A stretch of DNA of 23,452 bases from a virus. Positions within the stretch are counted from its first letter, which is position 1. Each line of letters opens with the position of its first letter. The translations under genes and the position numbers were made by a program. Location of the stretch: the IMG/VR virus record IMGVR_UViG_3300022924_000031, positions 1-23,452 of that record; one strand, given 5' to 3'. This document shows, piece after piece, positions 3,735 through 11,278 of this stretch. The notes beneath the pieces are model-generated. The model was not told the DNA's origin. It saw only the letters and a list, made by a program, of their open reading frames with translations, and did not search any database.

Positions 3735-5126
3735 ATGCGTCTATTCGGTCGAGAGCTGTCCCTAACCTTCAAGCGCGCGCCAATGTCGCCGCCCGGTACG
3801 GGCATGGGCGGTTGGTGGCCGATGATCCGCGAACCCTACTCAGGCGCATGGCAGAAGAACGATACGTGGACTAACGAATCAGTCTTGGCACATTACGCCG
3901 TCTACGCCTGCGTAACGTTGATCGCTAATGACATCGGCAAACTGCGCCAGCGCTTGATGGAACTGGACGCGAACGGTATCTGGAAAGAGACCACGAGCCC
4001 AGCTTTCAGTCCGGTGCTAAAGAAGCCGAACAACTACCAGAACCACATCCAGTTCAAGCAGTGGTGGCAGACGTCCAAGCTGATCAGCGGCAATACCTAC
4101 GGGTTGAAGCAGCGTGACCAGCGCGGCGTCGTCGTGGCAATTTACTTGCTCGATCCGTGCCGCGTGCTCCCCCTGGTTGCTGACGACGGCTCTATCTACT
4201 ACCAGCTTTCGAACGACAACCTGAACCGAGTAGGCGACGGCGTAACCGTACCGGCGTCCGAGATCATCCATGACCGGATGAACTGCTTGTTCCATCCACT
4301 GGTCGGTGTATCGCCGCTCTATGCCGCTGCGCAAGCCGCGTGTCAATCGCTCAAGATGCAAAGTGATAGCTCGACGTTCTTCGAGAACGGTGCGCGCCCT
4401 GGTGGTATCCTGTCCGCCCCCGGCGCTATCAGCGACGAGACTGCAGCACGGCTCAAAGCGCATTGGGACGCGAACTACACCGGCCAGAATGCGGGCAAGG
4501 TCGCTGTGGTCGGTGACGACCTGAAGTTCCAGCAGATGAAGATGTCGGCCACCGATTCGCAGTTGATCGAGCAGTTCCGGCTTACCGCGGAAATGATCTG
4601 CACCGCGTTCCACGTTCCGCCGTCTAAAGTCGGCGTAACCAACTCGCCGACCGGTACCACGGCCGCGCAAGAGAACCAGAAATATTACTCGGACTGCATT
4701 CAAGTTCTCGTCGAAGAGTATGAAGCCTGTATGGACGACGGTTTGTCCTTGCCTCCGCAGTACGGGGTAGAACTGGATCTAGACGGCCTGCTAAGGATGG
4801 ACATGGGTGCCCTAGTTGAAACGCTTAAAACCGCCGTAGGAGCCGGCATCATGGCGCCTAACGAGGCTCGATACCGTATGAGCTTGGGTCCTGTTACGGG
4901 CGGCGCTCAACCTTATCTTCAAATGCAGAACTTTAGCTTGGAAGACCTGGCTAAACGTAGCGCTTCCGGCGACCCCTTCGGGACGGAGCAGGCAGAACCA
5001 GAGACGCCTACGGAGATTTCAGAAGTAGACGCTGAAAGCATTAAGAATTATACTTTTGAGGCATTAACAAAAGAGTTCGCCTCGAATGAAGATTTGCAAA
5101 ACTTGTGGAATCCCGAAACCGCTTGA
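3735..5126 (+). CDS. Portal protein (HK97-type)
   Basis: 463 aa. Forms the dodecameric ring at one capsid vertex through which DNA is packaged and ejected, and to which the neck is attached. Recognisable portal stretches are LAHYAVYACVTLIANDIGKL near the N-terminus, NTYGLKQRD, the GVSPLYAAAQAACQSLKMQ segment, FFENGARPGGILS, FRLTAEMICTAFHVPPSKVG, and the late GIMAPNEARYRMSLGP. The start is ATG 3735, three bases after the preceding stop, with AGG 3724-3726 as a weak ribosome site. The final ~30 residues (from about 5041) are AT-richer than the rest, and the last 13 codons overlap the start of the HNH gene. In HK97-type phages the portal normally precedes the capsid gene; here it follows. Confidence 0.95.
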   Translation: MRLFGRELSLTFKRAPMSPPGTGMGGWWPMIREPYSGAWQKNDTWTNESVLAHYAVYACVTLIANDIGKLRQRLMELDANGIWKETTSPAFSPVLKKPNNYQNHIQFKQWWQTSKLISGNTYGLKQRDQRGVVVAIYLLDPCRVLPLVADDGSIYYQLSNDNLNRVGDGVTVPASEIIHDRMNCLFHPLVGVSPLYAAAQAACQSLKMQSDSSTFFENGARPGGILSAPGAISDETAARLKAHWDANYTGQNAGKVAVVGDDLKFQQMKMSATDSQLIEQFRLTAEMICTAFHVPPSKVGVTNSPTGTTAAQENQKYYSDCIQVLVEEYEACMDDGLSLPPQYGVELDLDGLLRMDMGALVETLKTAVGAGIMAPNEARYRMSLGPVTGGAQPYLQMQNFSLEDLAKRSASGDPFGTEQAEPETPTEISEVDAESIKNYTFEALTKEFASNEDLQNLWNPETA

Positions 5127-5832
5127 TTCTTTTAGCAAAGCTAAGAGAGCGAGAGGAGAGCGTGCATCACGGGGCGGCAATGGCGTAGCTAGCAACTGTA
5201 AATATTGCGTAGCAGAAAAACGTAGCCCAGGCATCCACGCCCGCAAAGAAGCTGAAGCACAGGAGAGAGCTTCGCTGTACGCCGCGGGGCTCAAACGCTG
5301 TACAAAATGCGAAGAAGTGAAATCGGTATCGCACTTCTGTGTGCGTAAAGCTTCGCCGGACGGCCTGAATTTAAAGTGCAGAGGATGCACGAAGGATTAT
5401 CTCGAAGGCTGGAGAGAAGAAAATCCGGATAGTTTCAAGAACTACTACGCCGAGAAGAAGGGAGAGCTCAACGCTAACTTCAAAGCATGGCGGGAAGAAA
5501 ATTCAGAGTCTCGCGCTGAGTACATGGCGAGATGGCTCCAGCAGAATCGGGCGCTATCCAACGAAAGGGCCATGCGGCGGGTAGCCTCAAAGCGACGGGC
5601 GACGCCAAAGTGGGCTAATCGCGAAAGAATGGTAGAATTCTACAAAGAGGCCGAAAGGTTGACGGCCGAGACGGGAATTCCTCATAACGTGGACCACATT
5701 TATCCTCTGCAAGGGAAGGTTGTTTGCGGTCTTCACTGCGAGGCGAACCTGAACGTCATTACGCAGTTTGAGAACATCCAGAAGCTTAATCGGATGCCTA
5801 CCGAAGAATATTTACAAAGGTGCAAGCAATGA
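5086..5832 (+). CDS. HNH homing endonuclease with two Cys4 zinc-finger-like modules
   Basis: 248 aa. The N-terminus has two CxxC pairs (C4/C7 and C38/C41), then a second such module (C72/C75 and C98/C101); both are typical zinc-binding DNA-recognition ribbons. A charged helical middle carries repeated W-REEN patterns. The HNH core lies near the C-terminus: NVDHIYPLQG (residues 201-210), GLHCEANL (215-222) and ENIQKLN (229-235), matching the D-H...N...N layout of HNH nucleases. The gene starts inside the portal gene (41-nt overlap) and ends overlapping the next ATG (ATGA at 5829-5832), so it fits exactly into the portal-decoration junction. AAGAG ~10 nt before the ATG is a weak ribosome site. 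A selfish insertion is the likeliest reading. Confidence 0.88.
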   Translation: MKICKTCGIPKPLDSFSKAKRARGERASRGGNGVASNCKYCVAEKRSPGIHARKEAEAQERASLYAAGLKRCTKCEEVKSVSHFCVRKASPDGLNLKCRGCTKDYLEGWREENPDSFKNYYAEKKGELNANFKAWREENSESRAEYMARWLQQNRALSNERAMRRVASKRRATPKWANRERMVEFYKEAERLTAETGIPHNVDHIYPLQGKVVCGLHCEANLNVITQFENIQKLNRMPTEEYLQRCKQ

Positions 5833-8311: not shown

Positions 8312-8859
8312 AAACCTTCGTCTGCATAGCGTCCGGCCCAAGCCTCAACGCACAAGACTGCGAACTGGTCCGGGCGTCAGGCCTCCCCACAATCGCTGTG
8401 AACAAATCCTGGCAGCTAGCCCCATGGTGCGATCACCTTTACGCAGGTGATCTCGCTTGGTGGGATGTGAACGTCCATGGGATTCCCCATGGACCTAAGC
8501 GATGGAGCTGTACGCGCCAGGCAGTGGCAAAGCACGGTTTGAACTATGACGAAAAGTACGGTGAATATAACTCTGGTTTGAGAGCGATCGAACTGGCCTT
8601 CAAGCTCGGCGCAGAACACGTCCTGCTTCTTGGGTACGACTGCACGGTGTCTAACGGTACGCACTGGCATGGCGACCACGAGAACACGAAGAACCCGGAC
8701 GAACTCCGGTGCCGCAAATGGGCAGCGCAACACGCCCGGCTGCCGCAGCGTGATAGGGTGGTGAACTGCTCGCGTGAAACGGCGTTGGAATGCTACCGGC
8801 TCGGGTATTTGGAAAAAGAGTTGCAAAAGGTTGTTGACACTTGTGATAAGCGGGACTAG
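8308..8859 (+). CDS. DUF115/GT42 (sialyltransferase)-like glycosyltransferase candidate
   Basis: 183 aa. The opening FVCIASGPSLNAQDC carries the xGPSL nucleotide-sugar-binding motif found in DUF115/Maf-type and CstI/II-like transferases, followed by a strand-helix pattern (LPTIAVNKSWQLAPWCDHLY, AGDLAWWD). NSGLRAIELAFKLGAEHVLLLGYD is a Rossmann-like segment, and THWHGDH a conserved-looking His cluster. Small proteins of this type are frequent in phages. The acceptor could be a virion protein or a host surface glycan; neither can be told from sequence. The gene is coupled to the 63-aa gene by ATGA. It contains two perfect hairpins (8431-8452 and 8473-8494), and its stop codon overlaps the -10 of a promoter. 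Confidence 0.65.
   Translation: MKTFVCIASGPSLNAQDCELVRASGLPTIAVNKSWQLAPWCDHLYAGDLAWWDVNVHGIPHGPKRWSCTRQAVAKHGLNYDEKYGEYNSGLRAIELAFKLGAEHVLLLGYDCTVSNGTHWHGDHENTKNPDELRCRKWAAQHARLPQRDRVVNCSRETALECYRLGYLEKELQKVVDTCDKRD
8431..8494 (+). repeat. Two tandem perfect hairpins inside the glycosyltransferase-like gene
   Basis: GATCACCT-ttacgc-AGGTGATC (8431-8452; 8-bp stem, 6-nt loop) is followed 20 nt later by GTCCATGGG-attc-CCCATGGAC (8473-8494; 9-bp stem, 4-nt loop). Both are fully paired despite being coding sequence. Confidence 0.8.
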
Positions 8860-8862
8860 AGT
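8834..8862 (+). promoter_or_regulatory. Sigma-70-type promoter
   Basis: A perfect TTGACA -35 (8834-8839), a 17-nt spacer and TAGAGT (8857-8862) as -10 (4/6). The -10 overlaps the stop codon of the upstream gene. It would start a transcript near 8870, running into the leader and terminator before the small membrane-protein gene. Related to the site at 10624-10652. Confidence 0.6.
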
Positions 8863-9043
8863 TCGTTTCAGAGGCAGCTAGCTATCAGGCGCACAACGTG
8901 AAGCCGGACAAGAATGCAGAGTTCCGGATTAAAGTGCAGTCTCTAACTGATCAACCAGCGCCAAGACCGCGAAAGCATGGTGAGTCTAGAGAAGTTCACC
9001 CGTCGCAGCCCGCACATGCGGAACCCCAGAATTCCCGTACTTC
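8863..9043 (+). ncRNA. Structured leader/ncRNA region A
   Basis: A gap of 224 nt with no convincing gene lies between the glycosyltransferase-like gene and the 54-aa gene. It holds a promoter at its 5' edge, a CCGGA/TCCGG hairpin (8904-8927), a GGTGA/TCACC hairpin (8979-9000) and a terminator. A frame open from GTG 8898 runs through to the 54-aa gene but is low-complexity and would cross the terminator. Three blocks align in order with region B (10653-10763). It could be a terminated small RNA or an attenuator leader. Confidence 0.4.
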
Positions 9044-9069
9044 AACCCGTCGAAAGGCGGGTTCTTTTT
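9044..9069 (+). terminator. Rho-independent terminator with GAAA tetraloop
   Basis: AACCCGTC (9044-9051) and GGCGGGTT (9056-9063) form an 8-bp stem, one pair a wobble, closed by GAAA and followed by C-TTTTT (9064-9069). It stands only 15 nt before the ATG of the next gene, so that gene needs read-through or another promoter. Confidence 0.85.
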
Positions 9070-9083
9070 ATCTGGAGATCGAT

Positions 9084-9248
9084 ATGGCTCAGATATCCTT
9101 AACGATTAACCTTAAGAAAGCATGGTGGGTAGGTAGCTTTCTTTGGGGCTCCGCGCTGATCCTGCGCATAGCCGGGCGAGACGAATTCCCGGAAAGCCTT
9201 CTTCGTTGGGTAGTCGCTCACGGATTCAAAATGGAACTTAGCGAATGA
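9084..9248 (+). CDS. Small single-span membrane protein (54 aa)
   Basis: Starts at ATG 9084 with GGAG (9074-9077) 6 nt upstream. The longer in-frame GTG start at 8898 would translate through a terminator and is rejected. Residues ~10-30 (KKAWWVGSFLWGSALILRIAG) form one hydrophobic helix after a basic flank, followed by an amphipathic C-terminal part (FPESLLRWVVAHGFKMELSE). No family is recognised. It overlaps the GT9-like gene by ATGA and may be an inner-membrane anchor or partner for that enzyme, though this is inference. Confidence 0.6.
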   Translation: MAQISLTINLKKAWWVGSFLWGSALILRIAGRDEFPESLLRWVVAHGFKMELSE

Positions 9249-10117
9249 TCATCCACGGAATGCGGGGCCTCGGAGATAATCTCTTCATGCGCCCTTTCAT
9301 AAAAGCTTTGCCCAAACCTGTTTATCTCGATACGCCTTGGCCGGAAATTTATTCTGATATTCCCGGCGTACACTTCCTCCGACCGCAAACCAATCTGCGC
9401 ACCCAAGCGAAGAACATCGCGCGCCACGCAACCTGGACGATGCCGCCCACGCGTCAACCGACTCGGCAGATACGCTACGGTACCGAGGGAATTATTCCCG
9501 GGATGATTGCCAGCTTCGGAGTAATGCCGGGCGAGTTCGACCTACCGCCACTGCCGCCTTCGCCCGAGTCCGACCCGTATGTCGTGGTGAGGCCTGCCAC
9601 AGTGCGCAGTGAGTGGCGTGCCGATACGCGTAACCCTGATCCAGATTACATAGCAGTAGCCGCAGCTTTGGCATGGGCAAAAGGCTATAAAGTGATCAGC
9701 GTCGCCGACCTAGAAGACGGCAAGGAGTGGGCGGTAGAACCTTTGCCGATCGCCGACGTGCGTTATCACAAAGGCGAGCTGCCGGTTGAACAACTGCTGG
9801 CGCTCGTCAAGGGTGCTGCCGCCGTGATCGGCGGTATCGGCTGGCTGGTCCCGGCGGCGCTTGCGGCCAAGGTTCCCGCGTGGATCATCTGCGGCGGCCA
9901 AGGCGGCTTCAATTCCCCGAAGCAGATCTGCCCGGACGGCAGTACAATTACCTTCGCAGTGCCGGACAACTTTTGCCGGTGCAAACTCAAACAACACAAC
10001 TGTGACAAGAGGATTTCCAACTATGACGCCAAGCTTACCGCGTGGGCTGACCGACACCTTGCTTTGGTCGGAGGAGCTGGGGCGCGGATTTCACACGCGG
10101 CCAGCAATGCGCTATGA
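9245..10117 (+). CDS. Glycosyltransferase family 9 (heptosyltransferase)-like protein
   Basis: 290 aa, GT-B-type candidate. The N-terminus MIIHGMRGLGDNLFMRPFI resembles the GxGDxL...P opening of LPS heptosyltransferases, which transfer ADP-heptose to a lipid-linked core. The C-terminal half has GAAAVIGGIGWLVPAALAAK followed by VPAWIICGG, corresponding to the donor-site G..G..H.A.A..VP segment, although the usual His is absent. It is shorter than cellular family members (~320-350 aa). A Cys-rich end (NFCRCKLKQHNCDKR) is unusual. Its last 95 nt overlap the methyltransferase start. It could modify virion or host glycan; the acceptor is unknown. Confidence 0.7.
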   Translation: MIIHGMRGLGDNLFMRPFIKALPKPVYLDTPWPEIYSDIPGVHFLRPQTNLRTQAKNIARHATWTMPPTRQPTRQIRYGTEGIIPGMIASFGVMPGEFDLPPLPPSPESDPYVVVRPATVRSEWRADTRNPDPDYIAVAAALAWAKGYKVISVADLEDGKEWAVEPLPIADVRYHKGELPVEQLLALVKGAAAVIGGIGWLVPAALAAKVPAWIICGGQGGFNSPKQICPDGSTITFAVPDNFCRCKLKQHNCDKRISNYDAKLTAWADRHLALVGGAGARISHAASNAL

Positions 10118-10646
10118 AGGCCAGTATTTCGCGCACTACCAGAAGCTTGATGCAACGCCGATGGGAGGCCTGCTGACCAAAGCGCGATTGGAACTGGTAG
10201 AGAAATACATCGACCCGTCCGAGACGGTAGACATCGGAATCGGAGGGGGCCGTTATGTCCAAGAAGCCAAGGGCCGTGGCTACGATGTGAATATCGATGC
10301 CATCAACTGGCTGGATGAAAGCGGCATCTACTGGGATGTGTACCATCGGGACGGCGCTGTTAAAGCGGTAACCTGCTGGGATAGCTTGGAGCACATCCCT
10401 GAACCTGAAAAGCTGCTGGCGCAGGTAACAGGTTGGCTCTTCGTCTCTATGCCGATCTATAACGACATGGCGGATTGCTTGGCCAGTAAGCACTACAAGC
10501 CGGGTGAGCATTTGCACTACTGGACGCTGCCAGGATTTGTGAACTGGTGCGAAGACCAAGGCTTCCAGGTTATGGAAGTCAACCACGCTGAATCAGAATT
10601 AGGCCGCGAAGGCATTACGTCGTTTGCGTTCAAGCGGGTTAGCTAG
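10023..10646 (+). CDS. Class I SAM-dependent methyltransferase
   Basis: 207 aa. Motif I is TVDIGIGGGRYVQEAKGRGY, followed by a post-I acidic position (VNIDAINW) and the motif-IV-like CWDSLEHIPEPEKLL, the layout of Methyltransf_11/23 enzymes that often act on small molecules or sugars. HYKPGEHLHYWTLPGFVNWC and the final TSFAFKRVS complete the fold. The start is ATG 10023 because GAGGA (10009-10013) lies 9 nt upstream. This gives a 95-nt overlap with the GT9-like gene. A later in-frame ATG, MRYEGQYF at ~10109, would nearly abolish the overlap but lacks a ribosome site. Coupling to the GT9-like gene suggests methylation of the sugar or glycan it handles. Confidence 0.8.
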   Translation: MTPSLPRGLTDTLLWSEELGRGFHTRPAMRYEGQYFAHYQKLDATPMGGLLTKARLELVEKYIDPSETVDIGIGGGRYVQEAKGRGYDVNIDAINWLDESGIYWDVYHRDGAVKAVTCWDSLEHIPEPEKLLAQVTGWLFVSMPIYNDMADCLASKHYKPGEHLHYWTLPGFVNWCEDQGFQVMEVNHAESELGREGITSFAFKRVS

Positions 10647-10652
10647 TAAAGT
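10624..10652 (+). promoter_or_regulatory. Putative sigma-70 promoter related to the 8834 site
   Basis: TTGCGT (10624-10629), a 17-nt spacer and TAAAGT (10647-10652). The stop codon of the methyltransferase abuts the -10. From the -10 onward, TAAAGTTGTGTTTCGGAGG matches TAGAGTTCGTTTCAGAGG at 8857 at about 16 of 19 aligned positions, with one gap. Confidence 0.45.
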
Positions 10653-10763
10653 TGTGTTTCGGAGGAATGCGCAGGCTGATGCGTGACGCCCAAGATGAAG
10701 GCGTTATAAAAGAGCTTGGCAAGACTCGCCAAGCATGTAGGGATCAGTTCCTACCCTTCGATG
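10653..10763 (+). ncRNA. Structured leader/ncRNA region B
   Basis: The gap between the methyltransferase and the gp10-like gene carries a row of stem-loops: ACGCC/GGCGT (10686-10704), a perfect 7-bp GCTTGGC/GCCAAGC with a 7-nt loop (10714-10734), and GTAGGGA/TTCCTAC with a TCAG loop (10737-10754), then a terminator. A frame open from TTG 10652 continues in phase into the gp10-like gene but would cross the terminator and the local ribosome site, so an N-terminal extension is unlikely. No tRNA cloverleaf fits. Blocks of sequence are shared in order with region A. Confidence 0.45.
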
Positions 10764-10797
10764 AAAGCCCTGACCTAAAAACTCAGGGCTTTTTCTT
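10764..10797 (+). terminator. Rho-independent terminator
   Basis: AGCCCTGA (10766-10773) pairs perfectly with TCAGGGCT (10783-10790) around a 9-nt loop, extendable by A-T pairs, followed by TTTTT-C-TT. Confidence 0.9.
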
Positions 10798-10802
10798 GCC
10801 TG

Positions 10803-10811
10803 TGATAAACT
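10803..10811 (+). promoter_or_regulatory. Extended -10 promoter (late type) for the tail-completion genes
   Basis: TGATAAACT (TG-n-TAAACT) followed by CCCGGCAAA, placed directly after the terminator and 24 nt before the ATG at 10835. Fifteen of 18 bases equal the site at 3413. No good -35 is visible. TTGCC/GGCAA flanks it as a short inverted repeat (10796-10819). Confidence 0.55.
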
Positions 10812-10834
10812 CCCGGCAAACCGAGGGCGACGAC

Positions 10835-11278
10835 ATGGCCGACTGGATCACGTACAAACTGAAGGGTGCCGAAGAGCTGTCACGCGTTTTCAAGACGCTG
10901 CCACAGGAGCTACAGCGCCAGGTTGTCGTGCCAGCCGCCAAAGACGCTATGGACATCGTGCTAAAGGACGCCATTCGTCGAGCTGCCGCGATCGATGATC
11001 CCTCCACCGTTCCTGACATCTCGAAGAACATTGCGCTGATTGAAGACAAGGGCTATTTCACCGAGACAGGTAGCACCAAGATATCCGTCGGCGTGCGCAA
11101 GACTAAACGCGGACAGCGCGGCGGCAATACCTATTACTGGTGGTGGGTCGAACTTGGTACATCGCGCAATCGCGCGCAACCCTTCATGCGCAATGCTCTC
11201 GGGCAGAACCAGCAAGCCGTGTTCCAAGAATTCCTTTCCTCTGCAAAATTCCAGCTTTTGAAATTGGGGCTCGACTAA
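10835..11278 (+). CDS. HK97 gp10-like neck/tail-completion protein
   Basis: 147 aa. The start is ATG 10835 with GAGGG (10823-10827) 7 nt upstream, which gives the normal family length. The HK97-gp10-like pattern is clear: YKLKGAEELSRVFKTLPQEL, VVVPAAKDAMDIVLKDAIRRAA, an RTKRGQRGGNTYYWWWVELG-type segment (usual form Y..WVEFGT) and RNRAQPFMRNAL, ending in long helices. Proteins of this family act at the tail-head interface or in tail completion. It overlaps the next gene by one base (TAATG). Confidence 0.88.
   Translation: MADWITYKLKGAEELSRVFKTLPQELQRQVVVPAAKDAMDIVLKDAIRRAAAIDDPSTVPDISKNIALIEDKGYFTETGSTKISVGVRKTKRGQRGGNTYYWWWVELGTSRNRAQPFMRNALGQNQQAVFQEFLSSAKFQLLKLGLD

Follow-up and report, generated by a model that had tools for sequence, protein, structure and literature searches.

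Structured RNA modules in two late-gene gaps of a soil phage, and F1, an RNA element shared with phages of several host genera

GOLLD and ROOL are structured RNAs of phages and prophages, often located near tRNA islands, which combine kissing loops with variable linkers and whose function is not known; the GOLLD linker sometimes contains tRNAs (PMC12286853, accessible part). In Stx phages, a small RNA (sRNA), StxS, is made between PR' and tR' and processed by RNase E, and late-leader sRNAs of this type are constitutively transcribed in lysogens (PMC7873438, accessible part). Phage T4, in a way that resembles what is described below, has two small stable RNAs, rnaC and rnaD (species 1 and 2), beside its tRNA cluster, to which the record annotation assigns no function. 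Here we analyse a 23,452-base IMG/VR record from a soil phage (IMGVR_UViG_3300022924_000031; its whole length is called the window), which covers the part of a siphophage genome with the head and tail genes; the phage is a distant relative of Pseudomonas phages PAJU2 and D3. The genes of interest follow each other in the order sialyltransferase-like gene (phrog_4603), gap A, 54-residue membrane protein, GT9-like gene, methyltransferase, gap B, HK97 gp10-like gene. Gap B contains an element that we call F1. We regard F1 as a new RNA family. Its general kind is known from the structured RNAs that occur in phage tRNA islands and leaders; what is unusual is the setting, between tail genes, in an RNA array that is hypervariable and driven by a promoter.

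The F1 family is defined by an outer helix P1, a hairpin P2 with GGCUGAU in its loop and a hairpin P3 with AUCAG in its loop, in this order, and all of these are present at 10659-10761 of the window (plus strand, as for all features with coordinates of their own below). P1 (10659-10665/10755-10761), whose letters are CGGAGG/CCUUCG in the minimum-energy fold, closes the two hairpins. P2 spans 10670-10683, with AGGCUGAU in its loop region, and is followed by a variable insert of two hairpins (10684-10736) and by P3 (10737-10754), which reads GUAGG...CCUAC with GAUCAG. The P2 and P3 loops are complementary (GGCUGAU and AUCAGC). The stretch 10660-10760 folds with a free energy of -40.5 kcal/mol (z -4.25), a value that none of 200 shuffles reached, and an intrinsic terminator lies just downstream, at 10764-10796 (fold z -4.4).

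Support for the family came from searches started from either hairpin. A seed made of P2 only found at least 120 stretches in IMG/VR; in 84 of the 120 listed a P3 hairpin lay within 230 nt downstream, versus 1 of 120 upstream, and all 84 frames had a P1 of at least 4 bp. Conversely, P2 lay upstream of 91 of the 116 P3-seeded matches and downstream of none, all with a P1 of at least 5 bp. Counting sequences rather than independent events, and with part of each motif fixed by the seeds, P1 cells were paired in 92.4% of cases in 89 P3-seeded sequences held in one fixed register, versus 62.0% (sd 1.2) after shuffling of the columns, and 40 distinct P1 octamers were found among them. The corresponding values were 93.7% versus 89.6% for P2 in the same sequences and 93.1% versus 90.1% for P3 in 78 P2-seeded sequences with a single GATCAG word. 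The basal pair of P2 was U-G in 33 of the 89 sequences and U-A in 32, and the U-G form marks the RNA strand. A seed-free finder of kissing frames was discarded because it did not separate the strands (29 plus, 23 minus).

These figures bear on two other explanations. The first takes the inverted-repeat frame for a site of recombination or transposition, comparable to attC or to a MITE, and the RNA fold for incidental. Terminal inverted repeats do flank variable inserts, exchange is mosaic, and endonuclease genes occupy the same gaps in relatives. P1, on the other hand, has 40 distinct octamers that covary and include G-U pairs, and therefore offers no fixed site to a recombinase; the U-G at the base of P2 belongs to one strand and the loops of the inner hairpins are conserved. 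We consider a DNA-level cassette quite improbable. The second is that the gaps are N-terminal extensions or small open reading frames (ORFs). Gap B of the window is open in the gp10 frame from 10652, and some records have a hypothetical protein across F1; yet only 2 of 40 loci have a gap B that is open in this frame, for which reason we rejected it as a coding stretch, and base pairs change in a compensatory manner. A protein-coding origin is scarcely credible.

F1 was found in phages of Klebsiella, Escherichia, Pseudomonas, Burkholderia and Aeromonas, where it sits in tRNA islands or in the Q-holin interval. At E 0.05, the Klebsiella F1 sequence matched 172 of 50,697 phage records. At least 80% of the query was covered in 33 of these, and some of the short matches are due to chance. 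Matches in Mycobacterium were rejected as chance, as they comprised P3 only and lay inside a ribonucleotide reductase gene among the matches listed. All 14 named-phage loci opened for F1 had the full frame, with UUCAG in P3 in IME10 and 2_D05. It lies between Q and holin in HK620, HK633, IME10 and Pseudomonas phage Shamal. In ZC08, where nine tRNAs form a cluster around it, and in swi2 and ASO78B, tRNAs lie no more than 600 nt away; the other named phages are UPM 2146, Magnus (an array of like kind, with tRNAs about 2 kb further on), SopranoGao, 6991, mEp460, CSP3 and 2_D05. In a Klebsiella ackermannvirus, the frame is built of other stems and occupies an unannotated non-coding stretch. In 13 of 13 tRNA-adjacent frames a nearby tRNA was on the same strand. 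Among 5426 complete Escherichia coli genomes, 108 contained HK620-type F1 and 715 the commonest F1 5' end (an exact word of 28 bases or longer), with no annotated feature under the latter among the 30 matches listed. Rfam 15 (4227 families) gave no match in the window at gathering and none at 8800-10850 up to E 5, and no match over F1 in the F1 loci, tRNAs apart. We found no description of F1 in the literature; subscription papers and preprints were mostly outside the search, so it may be published under another name. Three F1 letter strings did not occur in the paper texts searched.

Like GOLLD and ROOL, F1 thus consists of a fixed scaffold with a variable insert, and the insert of one relative (L039) holds a tRNA-like gene. 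Unlike many GOLLD members, which exceed about 800 nt, F1 spans 80-216 nt (median 130), has no Rfam match and no sign of a cage, and differs in sequence. The resemblance to StxS is one of place: F1 of HK620 and HK633 lies between the late promoter and the terminator, that of HK620 precisely between pR'/qut and terminator tQ. In the window, no such position between pR' and a terminator was found; the clade to which it belongs uses a promoter of its own and no Q was seen nearby. Furthermore, the accessible part of PMC7873438 describes StxS without the F1 scaffold. A scan of the T4 rnaC/rnaD region found no F1 frame, unlike the loci above. As a side observation, T4 rnaC (species 1 RNA; L392) ends in a T-arm-like hairpin, CCGGGTTCGAATCCCGG, and because of this looks partly tRNA-like.

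Gap A differs from gap B in having a recognizable promoter, TTGACA-17-TAGAGT, at 8834-8862, with 10 of 12 consensus matches and a -10 element that overlaps the stop codon of the upstream gene. A promoter scan of the window returned 3 promoter-like sites versus 8.3 in shuffles, i.e. fewer than expected by chance, and the case for this promoter therefore rests on conservation. In 35 gap-free relatives, codons 172-177 of the upstream gene, which extend up to and into the -35 region, showed a synonymous identity of 0.99 versus a mean of 0.63, the highest of all six-codon windows of that gene. To examine gap A in relatives, 80 IMG/VR loci and 41 more were reduced to 42 distinct intervals from the upstream gene to GT9, leaving out 4 identical intervals and one locus without GT9 (L125). 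The promoter word is kept at the end of the upstream gene in 38 of these 42 arrays; of the other four, three (L013, L023, L047) have an endonuclease-type ORF there, and the promoter of L037 has diverged. At the other end, gap A terminates with an intrinsic terminator at 9044-9068 (fold z -3.4), and a GC-rich hairpin followed by a T-rich run was found by a strict test in 36 of the 42 arrays. Gap A, and only gap A, thus combines its own promoter and terminator within the late operon with sporadic presence. Like those of phage morons, its promoter and terminator bracket an accessory late-operon unit absent in relatives such as PAJU2; unlike in morons, the cargo is RNA and not an ORF.

Two predicted modules make up this cargo. 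The first, A1 (8870-8944), has a core motif at 8884-8937 with an outer stem (8891-8894/8934-8937), an inner stem (8904-8908/8923-8927) and the invariant letters GAAG, GAAUGCAGA and AUUAAA. The stretch 8875-8933 has a match in intergenic DNA of an Alishewanella phage (78% over 59 nt, E 2e-3) and a weak one in an Aeromonas phage (E 0.8); in both, the A1 relative lies within a tRNA cluster. An alignment of seven sequences (the window, these two phages, contigs L196 and L201, and two clade members) had 98.4% paired cells, with both sides changed in 6 of 9 pairs. Its covariation score was 0.815 versus 0.244 in shuffles (0 of 500 as high), and slid controls had at most 46% paired cells. A pattern scan for A1 returned 47 stretches, most of which lacked complementary flanks and were set aside as chance or coding matches; those that fit, besides the window and the two named phages, were clade loci L138/L146/L157, L196 and L201. 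A1 is followed by a linker, GATCAACCAGCGCC (8949-8962), common to different modules; RTCAACCARCGCC is present in 23 of the 42 arrays. The second module, A2 (8963-9021), contains the hairpins GGUGA/UCACC and CCGC/GCGG (fold z -2.1; 8 of 200 shuffles as low), and its word GACCGCGAAAGCA occurs in 11 of the 42 arrays.

In relatives, the arrays of gap A hold different structured modules: tRNAs, tRNA-like stretches, pseudoknot-like modules and stems enclosing variable inserts. ARAGORN found tRNA genes in 12 of 36 close loci scanned, every one inside gap A, and no tRNA was detected in the window by ARAGORN or RF00005. Over the gap-A elements of relatives, Rfam reported tRNAs only. Forty of the 42 arrays are mosaic: one segment matches certain phages exclusively, another segment others. 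A second scaffold, GTTGCACCA...TGGTGCAATTG, surrounds different inserts, some of them tRNA-like, in gap A of 15 of the 42 relatives (e.g. L016, L031, L032). To the eye, the last module of L006, L012, L024, L025 and others resembles an H-type pseudoknot, and the stems of such modules (CCGGGA/UCCCGG, CUCGGA/UCCGAG, GAAUCC/GGGUUC) appear, also by eye, to covary. Tandem pseudoknot repeats beside a ToxN-like toxin gene are the mark of type III toxin-antitoxin RNAs.

Endonuclease genes raise the further explanation that the gaps are remnants of homing-endonuclease insertions, i.e. decayed leaders and flanks with no present function. Such genes, with a recurrent leader, fill gap A or B in several relatives, and GIY-YIG and HNH/EndoVII-type genes are present elsewhere in the window. 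The endonuclease leader is nevertheless a different sequence, and decay would not preserve covarying helices across phages of several host genera, which makes this origin very improbable. The leader itself, GCGGATAGGGGGCACCCGA...TCCGC, recurs in 12 of 47 loci (L006, L013, L020, L023, L033, L037, L047, L071, L073, L075, L078, L094) and precedes endonuclease-type ORFs in gap A or B where the sequence was read; the form in gap B of L055 has diverged. It looks like a structured 5' untranslated region travelling with the endonuclease gene.

An earlier note on this DNA had described gaps A and B as two related copies of a promoter, leader and terminator segment, flanking a three-gene cargo and possibly serving as exchange points. 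The terminators it placed in both gaps are confirmed. Its promoter is retained in gap A; the gap B candidate (TTGCGT/TAAAGT, at 10624) was rejected, having 7 of 12 matches, no report by the scan and a -35 element within the methyltransferase coding sequence. Stem-loops make a stable multi-stem fold in gap B, whereas the first half of gap A folds like its shuffles and shows covariation instead. The gaps do resemble each other at full length: a gapped end-to-end alignment scored 23.5 versus a shuffle mean of 7.9 (sd 2.8), better than 1000 of 1000 dinucleotide shuffles and than all 257 and 188 other window stretches. Among strict local blocks, the best (CAAGAC...AAGCATG) is at chance level, since 199 of 1000 shuffles reached it, and a seedless direct-repeat search of the window region gave no convincing pairing of the two gaps. 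The hairpins taken for a compensatory pair are not one hairpin: that of gap B is P3 of F1, and that of gap A belongs to another module.

The idea of copies around a cargo did not survive comparison with relatives. PAJU2 keeps GT9 and methyltransferase with neither gap, its corresponding genes overlapping; the absence of the gaps in a relative that retains the cargo had been set beforehand as refuting it. In close relatives, gaps A and B vary independently. F1 is in gap A of 7 of 42 arrays and in gap B of 3 of 40 loci, and no locus was seen with both. The 5' block of gap B recurs at position A of L039 (38 nt, E 5e-6), which indicates that segments move between the two positions. What is exchanged is the RNA modules inside the gaps. 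Of the suggested duplicated regulatory RNA, the structured RNA stands, and reaches far beyond this phage, but the gaps are not copies of each other. The structure that the earlier note had seen is thus real, but it was mistaken for a pair of copies and its reach was underestimated.

Our preferred reading, to which we give a probability of about 0.6, is that gap A is an autonomous non-coding unit and gap B an F1 RNA with its terminator, both providing stable phage RNAs that act in trans. An RNA of about 200 nt, comprising two structured modules, would start from a sigma-70-type promoter where the sialyltransferase-like gene ends and would stop at the intrinsic terminator. In gap B, F1 RNA would be released by its own terminator within late transcription; P1 would close a junction, the P2 and P3 loops would probably kiss, and the scaffold would carry the variable insert. 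We infer that the RNAs are made and stable, that modules are cut apart at AU-rich linkers, and that they act in trans as phage tRNAs and late-leader sRNAs do. The GAAUUC/AAAUUC linkers between modules in relatives resemble what we take to be RNase E sites. The hypervariable insert might bind a host factor, and plausibly thereby serve as a decoy or imitate an antitoxin to counter host defence; we favour such a trans role because a variable insert on a constant closed scaffold fits diversifying selection. The elements might instead be cis-acting leaders, attenuators or antitermination sites that adjust how the following late genes are transcribed or translated and have no role in trans. Each element does lie directly upstream of a terminator and a gene, and in HK620 and HK633 F1 is downstream of annotated pR' and qut (or qut-like) sites. 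The downstream genes, though, are wholly different between phages (holin, gp10, tRNA, other ORFs), the insert is hypervariable whereas a cis regulator should keep its switch, and tRNAs occupy the same gap-A unit in relatives. We regard the cis explanation as unlikely.

Several observations weigh against the trans-acting reading. Expression of the gap A and gap B RNAs is a prediction from the letters of the DNA, and the gap B RNA may be a mere part of the late transcript, as it has no convincing promoter. The decoy role proposed for the insert is conjectural. The first half of gap A (A1) folds no better than shuffles (z +0.1 to +0.4), so that the structure of A1 rests on covariation; the Klebsiella F1 likewise folds no better than shuffles (z -0.44). 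A tRNA lies within 600 nt of 13 of 135 distinct F1 frames, a modest excess over the 3.0% of random positions (all loci fetched), and 59 of the 135 lie across a stop-free stretch of 120 or more residues; such stretches cover 79% of the loci. Kissing between the loops is affected as well. A scan for P3 loops with an altered central base gave mixed results: compensated partners were found in L139 (GCUAA/UUAGC), L410 (GCUAAU/AUUAGC), L401 (GCUCA/UGAGC) and L454 and L455 (GGCCGA/AUCGGC), and many P3-loop changes are accommodated as G-U, but where C is changed to A in the P3 loop P2 is still the canonical GGCUGA, a mismatch, in 6 of 11 matches. The loops of L446 and L466 also mismatch, and P3 of the window can form a 7-bp stem with a UCAG tetraloop that would compete with kissing. 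Since compensated partners exist alongside such exceptions, kissing of P2 and P3 is likely, short of proof.

More generally, phages might carry an exchangeable repertoire of small structured RNAs, with scaffolds like F1 and fast-changing inserts swapped like cassettes, that serve as counter-defence or host-takeover agents; we put this forward as a tentative possibility and lean somewhat against it. If true, the virosphere would have a large layer of uncatalogued RNA, located in tRNA islands, Q leaders and promoter-driven arrays, with F1 as one of its scaffolds; this swappable layer of phage RNA appears to be unannotated to date. F1 is of interest in itself as an unannotated, strongly covarying RNA family across phages of several host genera. 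Its presence in the tractable E. coli phages HK620 and HK633, and in its HK620-type form in the lysogen-bearing strain HS, makes the role of stable RNAs beside phage tRNAs directly testable.

Between the gaps, the small predicted membrane protein (9084-9248; phrog_9557) is replaced by other small ORFs in relatives. The GT9-like gene (9245-10117; phrog_6804) has no Pfam match and takes its name from the annotation of phage relatives; the methyltransferase (10023-10646) belongs to PF13489. Genome contigs scanned with the protein upstream of gap A yielded no relative. Elsewhere in the window, a GIY-YIG gene (PF01541; 1518-2282) and an EndoVII/HNH-type gene (5086-5832) stand amid structural genes. 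Between terminator B and gp10, a block CTTGCCTGTGATAAACTC (10793-10834) is kept in 30 of 47 loci; it may serve the tail genes as a promoter or as a site of processing. A module CCGATAGGCCTMTCGNAGAAGCCCAAATCTTTCGG, probably another small RNA, is present in 11 of 47 loci, in gap B of L007, L010, L015, L018, L021, L022, L030, L031 and L055, and also in L008 and L094. Finally, about 2.4 kb of Klebsiella phage UPM 2146 (L088:600-3024), without annotated genes or ARAGORN tRNAs, consists of units with long perfect closing stems and complex interiors, and is probably a large RNA array.

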